A stretch of DNA of 64,000 nucleotides from an uncultured Bacteroidales bacterium (GTDB lineage Bacteria > Bacteroidota > Bacteroidia > Bacteroidales > P3), in NCBI GenBank assembly GCA_905233895.1, contig CAJOFL010000004.1:1138-65137 (forward strand), given 5' to 3'. Of the stretch, positions 12,897 through 18,378 are shown piece by piece (position 1 is the first letter of the stretch; the number at the start of each line of letters is the position of its first letter). The position numbers were made by a program, and so were the translations under genes. Under the pieces are notes generated by a model. The model had not been told where the DNA came from. It worked only from the letters and a program-made list of their open reading frames with translations, and did not search any database.

Positions 12897-16743
<3,847 letters not shown>

Positions 16744-16746
16744 GTT

Positions 16747-17265
16747 TCAAAGGTCGATTTCAGGGAAGAGCCGGCGCATGGCGACGATGCTGGGGTTGCG
16801 GTCGGCCATGGCGCGGAATTTCTCCTCGGCGGTGTAGATGATGGTTTCTTTGCTGATAAAGAGCGGTATTACGTTGCAGTCGAGCATGGGCATGCCGCAT
16901 TTCTTGCGGATGCTCTGCATGACTTCAACGCGGTGGGGTCGGAAGTCGGTGGCGAACCAGGTCTCGGTGGCGGTGATGTCGATGGTGCGGTTGTTTTCGC
17001 CGATGCTTACTGTGGCGGCGGCCATGAGTTCGGTGAGGTTCAGTTCGTCGGCGGTCTCTTTCCAGTAGCGCTCGAGGTCGGCCTGTTCGAGGGGTTTGGC
17101 CTCAACTTGCAGCTTGGGTTGGGCGGCCACCGTTGTGGGGGGCAACTTGATGGAGATGCTGCCTGCAAGGAGTGAGCCGCTAGGGGTACTGGCAGGGCTA
17201 ACCGCACTAGGCTTGCTAGCGGGGCTTGGGGAAGGTGCCGTGCCTGCCTTGCGGCGTCTTGCTAT
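16747..17265 (-). CDS. dnaX: DnaX tau-specific C-terminal part, downstream of an in-frame TAG
   Basis: The 172 codons after the TAG at 17266-17268 stay in the same frame as dnaX and read as the usual end of Bacteroidetes gamma/tau: a Lys/Arg start (IARRRK), a Pro/Ser/Ala-rich linker, then a folded domain (ERYWKETADEL to the end, with IYTAEEKFRAMADRNP). In relatives this region joins the clamp loader without a break. The only candidate starts inside are a TTG at 17145 and an ATG in mid-domain, so separate translation is unlikely to give a whole domain. It may be made by stop-codon readthrough, or be a relic of a recent nonsense mutation. No further stop or frameshift is seen. Confidence 0.75.
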   Translation of the reverse strand: MARRRKAGTAPSPSPASKPSAVSPASTPSGSLLAGSISIKLPPTTVAAQPKLQVEAKPLEQADLERYWKETADELNLTELMAAATVSIGENNRTIDITATETWFATDFRPHRVEVMQSIRKKCGMPMLDCNVIPLFISKETIIYTAEEKFRAMADRNPSIVAMRRLFPEIDL

Positions 17266-18378
17266 CTAATAGGCCTGAAACTCGGTATTTTTCAATGCAG
17301 CCAGTTTCATCAGGCATATCTCGACGAAGAGGTTCTTGTTGTTGGCTTCGCGGAAGCGGTATTCGTAGTCGCCGGCAGTGTTCAGAAGGCTGAGGATAAG
17401 CGGCAGGCCGCACTGCTGTGCCTGCATGCCGTAGCGTTGGCGCATATTGTCAGAGCCATCGATAAGTGGAAGGGTGGAGGGGTCGAGGCTGACCATGAGG
17501 TTGCGCAGGTGGGCGCAGAGGCCGGTGAGGAAATGCTGGCCGCCGAAGCCTTTGGAGATGACCTCCTGATAGAGGGTGAGCGAATGGCTTATGTCGCCTG
17601 CCAGGAAGTAGTCGACCAGGTGGAAATAGTAGTCCTCGTCGAGCATGTTGAGGTTTTCGAGGCAGAGTTCGCGGGTAAGGTTACCGCCGGTGAAGTTGAC
17701 CAGCTGGTCGAAGGTGGAGAGGGCGTCGCGCATACCGCCTTCAGCCTTGCGGGCAATGAGTTCGAGGGCTTCCTCCTCGAAGGTAACCCCTTCCTTGCCG
17801 GCCACGTAGCGCAGGTGGGCCACGATGTCGGCGTTCTCGATGCGCTTAAAGTCGAACACCTGGCAGCGGCTGAGGATGGTGGGGATAATCTTGTGCTTCT
17901 CGGTTGTGGCGAGGATGAACTTGGCATAGGCCGGCGGTTCCTCGAGGGTTTTGAGGAAGGCGTTGAAGGCGGCCTGGCTGAGCATGTGGACCTCGTCGAT
18001 GATATACACCTTGTAGCGGCCGGTGGTGGGCGGGATATAGACCTGCTTGACCAGCTCGCGGATGTCGTCGACCGAGTTGTTGCTGGCCGCGTCGAGTTCG
18101 AAGATGTTGAGCGAGCCGCCTTCGATGAAGGTGCGGCAGCTCTGGCATTCGTTGCAGGCCTCCACCTCGGGTGTGAGGTGCTCACAGTTGATGGTCTTGG
18201 CCAGGATACGGGCGCAGGTGGTCTTGCCCACGCCGCGCGGACCGCAGAAGAGGAACGCCTGCGGAAGCTGGCCCGTCTGAATGGCGTTCTTCAACGTGCG
18301 CGTGATATGACTCTGGCCGACGACGCTCTCGAAGGTCGCCGGACGATACTTTCTTGCCGATACTACAAAATTGTCCAT
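17266..18378 (-). CDS. dnaX: DNA polymerase III clamp-loader subunit gamma/tau, N-terminal part
   Basis: ATPase motor of the clamp loader. A 370-residue product with domains I-III: Walker A GPRGVGKT (46-53), zinc-binding cysteines (CEHLTPEVEACNECQSC), Walker B VYIIDE, sensor 1 ILATTEKHK and SRC arginine finger. It ends at TAT-TAG just after domain III, where the linker to the tau C-terminal domain normally begins. The product therefore equals a gamma form; adding the in-frame downstream part would give about 543 residues, a usual tau length. A clear promoter lies at 18429-18460. First gene of the dnaX-dapF-ligA operon. Confidence 0.95.
   Translation of the reverse strand: MDNFVVSARKYRPATFESVVGQSHITRTLKNAIQTGQLPQAFLFCGPRGVGKTTCARILAKTINCEHLTPEVEACNECQSCRTFIEGGSLNIFELDAASNNSVDDIRELVKQVYIPPTTGRYKVYIIDEVHMLSQAAFNAFLKTLEEPPAYAKFILATTEKHKIIPTILSRCQVFDFKRIENADIVAHLRYVAGKEGVTFEEEALELIARKAEGGMRDALSTFDQLVNFTGGNLTRELCLENLNMLDEDYYFHLVDYFLAGDISHSLTLYQEVISKGFGGQHFLTGLCAHLRNLMVSLDPSTLPLIDGSDNMRQRYGMQAQQCGLPLILSLLNTAGDYEYRFREANNKNLFVEICLMKLAALKNTEFQAY

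Follow-up and report, generated by a model that had tools for sequence, protein, structure and literature searches.

An in-frame UAG at the gamma/tau junction of dnaX, conserved across a Bacteroidales genus, is a candidate programmed readthrough site

INTRODUCTION

In a 64,000-nucleotide stretch of DNA from an uncultured Bacteroidales bacterium (hereafter, the window), the dnaX reading frame meets an in-frame TAG between what read as its gamma and tau parts and then continues open in the same frame. This raises the question of whether the region behind the stop is translated and, if so, how. A preliminary description of the window, made from the sequence alone, had proposed that readthrough of the stop could give both gamma and tau, with a recent nonsense mutation or an assembly error as the alternatives. 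The routes to gamma and tau that are named in the available sections of two papers are -1 frameshifting, poly-A slippage and, in Caulobacter, proteolysis (PMC5009743, PMC3711429), and our literature search, judged by titles and the opening lines of abstracts, found no report of dnaX readthrough. We therefore compared the dnaX junction across the genus to which the window's genome belongs and in neighboring lineages.

RESULTS AND DISCUSSION

An ordinary stop codon interrupts dnaX

On the minus strand, dnaX begins with an ATG at 18378 and runs for 370 codons to a TAG at 17268-17266; the same frame then stays open for 172 codons, to a TGA at 16749-16747, and the next gene begins with an ATG at 16743, three bases past that TGA. 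On re-reading, the position of the TAG, the length of the in-frame continuation and the 3-bp gap to the next gene proved to be exactly as first described. The features of the locus are listed below.

17269..18378, minus strand: dnaX head (gamma; AAA+ clamp-loader region), 370 codons, with matches to TIGR02397, PF13177 and PF22608
17269..17271, minus strand: last sense codon before the stop, TAT in the window, one of the 9 of 106 that fall outside the usual Gly/Pro/Thr/Ser
17266..17268, minus strand: in-frame TAG, putative recoding site, present at each of the 112 junctions of the genus that could be read
17257..17265, minus strand: 3' context ATA GCA AGA (ATW GCN AGR in the genus), from codon counts set against head usage
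17246..17255, minus strand: putative hairpin GCC-GCAA-GGC with a GNRA loop, 10 nt past the stop, from hairpin scoring across 106 loci
17238..17245, minus strand: 3' flank AGGCACGG, conserved in part in the junction alignment
17092..17265, minus strand: variable Pro/Ser/Ala linker, tail residues 1-58, from pLDDT, lack of secondary structure and dN/dS
16765..17091, minus strand: tau C-terminal domain, tail residues 59-167, from hhalign, PRK14971 and the predicted fold, with limits that we set from the structure model
16747..16749, minus strand: TGA stop of the tau frame, from the ORF reading
15961..16743, minus strand: next gene, an ORF whose name, dapF, is taken from the preliminary description only

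The head is a DnaX clamp-loader ATPase, matched by TIGR02397 (dnaX_nterm) at 423 bits over residues 6-359; between the end of this clamp-loader region and the stop lie 11 residues. PF12169, the narrower Pfam model for domain III, had no match in the window's own genome, so the domain III assignment rests on TIGR02397.

We asked whether UAG might carry another meaning in this organism. TAG terminates 12 of the 43 long nonoverlapping ORFs of the window, dnaX included, in a set that was picked mechanically and may hold spurious ORFs. The genome assembly (2.34 Mb, 68 contigs, 97.8% complete) encodes RF1, matched at 508 bits, and a second release factor, matched at 203 bits, below the RF1 cutoff, and presumably RF2. 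UAG is thus probably not reassigned in this genome, in agreement with the preliminary description, which had called TAG an ordinary stop elsewhere in the window and had set aside a change of genetic code.

The TAG is conserved across the genus

We take the genus to be the one that holds Candidatus Colimorpha (merdihippi); many of the other named matches carry ruminant or horse titles. Among 120 genomes of the genus, a dnaX head was found at an E value of 1e-60 or better in 113, while seven had none at this cutoff, one of them 97% complete. One locus was taken per genome, and 112 junctions could be read, the remaining locus (L168) ending within the head. An uninterrupted second dnaX in G031 (on contig C222) and a fragment in G069 (on C15) were omitted from the set.

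The junction stop was TAG in all 112 readable loci and never TAA or TGA, a uniformity well outside what chance would give, and the tail was in frame with the head in 106 of them; these counts, like all our counts across the genus, describe related sequences rather than independent cases. The 104 complete in-frame tails span 166-259 codons and end in TGA (59 loci), TAA (23 loci) or TAG (22 loci). Slippage of the E. coli -1 type or on poly-A was rejected for these loci: 106 of the 112 tails lie in frame 0, and the junctions displayed hold no A-run.

Because the TAG is conserved in more than 100 species-level genomes, the stop is not a mutation or an assembly error: a recent nonsense mutation, a pseudogene or a faulty assembly, as the preliminary description had allowed for, is at odds with a TAG in 112 of 112 junctions, many of them from MAGs of separate projects (judged by titles), and with an intact tail under selection (see below), and can be excluded for practical purposes. 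The alignment of related dnaX genes that had been suggested as a check showed conservation of both the TAG and its 3' context within the genus. Nor did it show uninterrupted close relatives alongside a decaying tail, since the tails are under purifying selection and the only uninterrupted copy met in the genus, the second dnaX of G031, looks like contamination. That copy (L037) encodes 621 aa with 64% identity and sits in a MAG that also holds the TAG type; its contig is probably a contaminant.

A short sequence element surrounds the stop

Around the stop, the genus shares the element TAG-ATW-GCN-AGR, which is conserved at the nucleotide level (AGT stands once for AGR). For the isoleucine that follows the stop, all 106 loci use ATW and none uses ATC, whereas ATC makes up 1,347 of 2,272 isoleucine codons in the same heads. 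Likewise, the alanine codon is GCA in 99 of 106 loci, versus 517 of 3,407 in the heads, and the arginine codon is AGR in 105 of 106, versus 144 of 2,186. The codons that prevail in the heads (ATC, CGN and alanine codons other than GCA) are thus the opposite of those chosen behind the stop, and this choice, judged from codon usage, is an RNA-level constraint in a linker that varies elsewhere.

The codon before the stop is also biased. It encodes Gly, Pro, Thr or Ser in 97 of 106 loci, versus 10-63 of 106 at each of the nine codons upstream, and its third base is A in 70 loci, T in 33, G in 3 and C in none (A or T in 103 of 106), although the codon itself varies between species, with 17 different codons across the 106 loci. 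Release is slowed when Gly or Pro is the last residue, and suppression is favored by a 3' A, effects that fit a leaky stop. The available part of PMC5373646 holds nothing on the effect of the last codon.

We then looked for the element elsewhere. When a collection with one genome per species, described as covering 84,980 species, was scanned for exact matches to the motif, 57 were obtained, with about seven expected by chance on a rough estimate. Of these, 53 are dnaX junctions of Bacteroidales MAGs (50 assigned by script and 3, L173, L181 and L218, by eye), many on contigs already in the genus set, so that they add names rather than independent counts; the other four lie in other organisms, with no long open frame around the TAG. 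In the window's own genome, the 12-base core occurs once, at dnaX. A sequence model of the element (R1) found nothing convincing outside the genus in 393 genomes of the order, where its four matches were the own genome, one other genome of the genus and two weak hits (E values of 5.5e-4 and 0.005), the stronger of which was discarded as lacking a TAG. Across 395 genomes of the phylum, at the stricter cutoff of 1e-4, R1 matched the own genome alone; both scans used stricter filters, by which weak matches were lost. Viral contigs gave no match to the element. Two loci, L097 and L110, hold a second copy of TAGATTGCAAG, out of frame within the tail about 450-500 nt past the TAG, which we take to be a coincidence, the codons of a Leu-Asp-Cys-Lys stretch found in relatives' tails.

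A small putative hairpin follows at a fixed distance

Hairpins with a score of at least 8 within positions +10 to +26 were found in 102 of 106 loci, compared with 10-47 of 106 for 13 other 16-nt windows taken from these loci. Where a hairpin was found, the stem starts 9-11 nt past the UAG in all but one of the 102 loci (101), and in that one at 7 nt. The stems are short and weak, with 3-6 bp and mostly 3-5. L032 has the stop and the core without the hairpin, and L002, L003 and L097 have a weak hairpin only.

We sorted the 106 loci into three hairpin forms, partly by their stem bases: a CGC...GCG form (62 loci), a long form with a 3' arm of GGGC (15 loci, with loops GAAA in 11, GCAA in 3 and GAGG in 1), and a remaining short form (29 loci, mostly GCC-NNNN-GGC, which takes in L032 and the odd L146 and L162). 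GNRA loops occur in 14 of the 29 short-form and 14 of the 15 long-form loci. Since stem bases entered the sorting, the constancy of the pairs (62 of 62 in the CGC...GCG form) is not evidence for the stem. Two double changes from C-G to U-A, in L095 and L158, keep a stem pair. A third pair type in the short form, G-C at 14-21, was rejected as covariation, as it comes from L146, whose hairpin is in another register. RNAalifold gave no consensus pair in a mixed alignment of 92 sequences, so model R1 holds sequence only, and many of the single-sequence minimum-energy folds of the region are weak and variable and differ from the proposed stem.

The tail is a tau C-terminal domain under purifying selection

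Compared with the C-termini of five uninterrupted DnaX proteins (four from other families and the odd G031 copy, which passed our filter among 14 loci tried), the tail gave an hhalign probability of 99.1% and an E value of 1.4e-18. It also matched the gamma/tau model PRK14971, with an E value of 1.8e-6 and 27 bits, far below that model's full-length cutoff. By homology, then, the tail is the tau C-terminal domain, and its description as a linker plus tau C-terminal domain is borne out by the likeness to uninterrupted tau C-termini. AlphaFold2 predicted a disordered start of the tail, with no secondary structure for residues 1-40 (pLDDT 48-58) and 41-60 (75-81), followed by a confidently modeled domain with block pLDDT values of 95-98 for residues 61-130 and 85-92 for residues 131-170. 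Its predicted arrangement resembles DnaA domain I and DciA, in a comparison in which unrelated folds score nearly as high.

We estimated dN/dS for 15 close pairs of relatives, one of them a pair of the +1 class described below. For the tail domain, taken as the final 120 codons, a value could be computed in 12 of the 15 pairs and ranged from 0.05 to 0.32; the linker, comprising the remainder of the tail, gave 0.18-0.66 in all 15 pairs, and the head gave 0.02-0.13 in 14, with some dS values near saturation and with the few conserved post-stop codons counted in the linker. By these ratios the tail is under purifying selection, linker included, and the linker values still indicate that the stretch just past the stop is translated. 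In one comparison, L005 versus L105, dS was 0.36 in the linker, 1.04 in the head and 1.42 in the tail domain, a likeness of the linkers that hints at recombination of the junction region.

Programmed readthrough is the best-supported reading

The analysis shows that the stop is conserved, that an element surrounds it, that the tail is under selection, and what head and tail each are. Building on these findings, we propose that the dnaX stop is a programmed UAG readthrough cassette, in which readthrough would give tau and termination gamma; we put the probability of this reading at about 0.85. It is the best-supported account of the locus, predicted from the conserved stop, the element and the selection on the tail, and it agrees with the readthrough first suggested. 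The ribosome would pause with UAG in the A site, the last codon and the element downstream would delay release by RF1, so that a near-cognate tRNA could win part of the time, inserting an amino acid and keeping the frame to yield a tau of 543 aa, while termination at the UAG would yield a gamma of 370 aa. Readthrough would be favored by the poorly terminating last codon, the invariant UAG AUW GCA AGR, and the hairpin 9-11 nt on, a distance that puts it roughly at the mRNA entry site of the ribosome. We infer that both gamma and tau are made from dnaX in the cell and that tau arises by decoding rather than by initiation. Near-cognate pairing would make glutamine our guess for the inserted residue, and a readthrough efficiency of about half would match the gamma:tau ratio known elsewhere.

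Several other mechanisms could in principle lead to translation of the tail. Under termination and reinitiation, gamma would end at the UAG and the tail would be made separately, starting at the AUU or AUA or farther on. Both codons do serve as starts, if rarely, all 106 loci have one or the other immediately past the stop, and an ATG, GTG or TTG occurs within the first 30 tail codons in 51 of 104. However, the AUW is never replaced by ATG, GTG or TTG, and ATC is absent; the first in-frame ATG of the tail falls anywhere between codons 17 and 210, with no later start conserved. Purifying selection on the linker behind the stop also speaks against reinitiation, which leaves the bias of the codon before the stop unexplained and would yield a tau tail without the clamp-loader part, presumably losing tau's link. 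We regard this route as unlikely.

Ribosome bypass, in which the peptidyl-tRNA would hop over the UAG to a codon downstream, as reportedly happens in T4 gene 60, we consider quite improbable. A landing-site mechanism would tolerate the head of six members being in another frame when the tail always keeps its frame with respect to the hairpin. But 17 different codons precede the stop in the various species, and the codon found there is not repeated at any constant in-frame spacing within 20 codons. Hopping of the T4 gene 60 type was rejected, as codon recurrence revealed no take-off codon with a landing codon to match.

A-to-I editing of the mRNA, turning UAG into UGG so that tau would follow by ordinary decoding, would account for the use of UAG only, since a single such edit of UAA or UGA gives no sense codon. 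Against it, we know of no bacterial enzyme that edits such a site, the known TadA motif differs from the UAG site, and the A lies outside the hairpin; we consider editing very improbable. A dedicated or phage-borne amber suppressor tRNA would likewise explain why no other stop is used. In the window's own genome, rated 97.8% complete, ARAGORN assigned 45 tRNA genes to the 45 tRNA loci and none of them bears a CUA anticodon, in a set that lacks tRNA-Ile(GAU) and tRNA-Ala(UGC) and is therefore incomplete, with some genes missing from the assembly, so that a suppressor gene could have been missed. Yet UAG is an ordinary stop elsewhere and a conserved 3' element would be needless with such a tRNA, which makes this explanation extremely improbable.

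How the proposed readthrough compares with known recoding

If programmed readthrough is the correct reading, dnaX in this genus would join, by another mechanism, several systems described in the available sections of published work. In E. coli, dnaX undergoes a -1 programmed frameshift at A AAA AAG with a stem-loop (PMC5009743, PMC3711429). As there, one gene would give gamma and tau through recoding behind the clamp-loader region, followed by a putative stem-loop; unlike there, where frameshifting on a slippery heptamer makes gamma and tau is the zero-frame product, the window's dnaX would give gamma by termination and tau by recoding, with an in-frame tail and no slippery heptamer. Poly-A slippage serves dnaX in Thermus, with a two-ORF type in Chlorobi and others (PMC3711429). 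As proposed here, gamma in the two-ORF type is terminated by a stop in the zero frame and tau is reached through recoding, but the signal there is an A7-A10 run with a shifted tail frame rather than a UAG with an in-frame tail. The Moloney murine leukemia virus gag-pol junction, a case of UAG readthrough (PMC5009743), shares the in-frame UAG and, as proposed here, a downstream structure and two products, although it uses a viral pseudoknot whereas we see a small putative hairpin and a conserved 9-nt context in a bacterial chromosomal gene.

Regulatory +1 frameshifting is described for bacterial RF2 (prfB; PMC5009743), and a 2016 recoding review states, in its available part, that in no known organism has the frameshifting of RF2 or antizyme been replaced by stop readthrough. 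Here, in a different gene, the proposed readthrough occupies the place where relatives frameshift. It would be a further, independent solution for making gamma and tau and, as such, would support the view that making both is selected for. The more than 100 natural variants of a short element could be used directly to find out why bacterial ribosomes go past a UAG.

Related loci place the tail in other frames

In six loci of the genus (L033, L034, L155, L156, L160 and L166), the head ends in AGG CNT AGC TAG and the tail lies in the +1 frame, with Gly-Ile/Leu-Ala-Arg in place of the stop-Ile-Ala-Arg of the main class. All six keep a hairpin with CGC and GCG arms. Their AGG stands 10-11 nt before the hairpin, a spacing like that of the main class that suggests a slip at NNN AGG C; the UAG and the AGC before it, however, are both kept in all six, pointing to slippage at the stop instead. 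These members and the f2 element described below are formal kin of RF2 and Ty-type +1 frameshifting, whereas the main class keeps the frame.

On the head tree, the six +1 members need four label changes; support is low, and well-supported branches force one. Repeated switching between readthrough and +1 frameshifting within the genus is thus possible. As a tentative extension of the readthrough reading, in which we place less than even confidence, a compact UAG-redefinition cassette, made up of the last codon, UAG AUW GCA AGR and the hairpin 9-11 nt on, would be read by an ordinary near-cognate tRNA often enough to set the gamma:tau ratio of the replicase, and the same stalled-ribosome platform would have been switched between readthrough and +1 within the genus, perhaps repeatedly. 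Were this so, the dnaX junction would be a case of chromosomal, clade-wide programmed readthrough of a core bacterial gene without a special tRNA, and a place where recoding modes interconvert.

Our survey of the order found dnaX in at least 240 of 247 genomes, and many other families have an uninterrupted gene among the matches listed. Outside the genus we read 21 split or short dnaX loci, L045 included. In 13 of them the junction holds an A-rich run (A6 in L288, longer in the others) with the tail in the +2 frame. Three of these 13, L272, L273 and L274, come from g26, a genus of the same family, and show a long A-run at the dnaX junction with a +2 tail; this poly-A type, set against the TAG of the window's genus, suggests that recoding modes change between sister genera. 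L277 combines an A-run with a +1 tail, and no tail was found in L276, L280, L285 and L290.

Three further loci among the 21, from family f2, have a +1 tail with AGGCAATCGCAGGAGCG. This second, putative dnaX recoding element lies at the gamma/tau junction in one f2 genus (that of G037; L045, L275, L283 and L316-L345), where the 17-mer, allowing one mismatch, was found in 37 of 40 genomes; every one of the 30 loci read has a +1 tail, L275 and L283 being counted again. The element holds a Shine-Dalgarno-like AGGAG together with CGC and GCG arms, and in two loci its AGG is changed to CGG.
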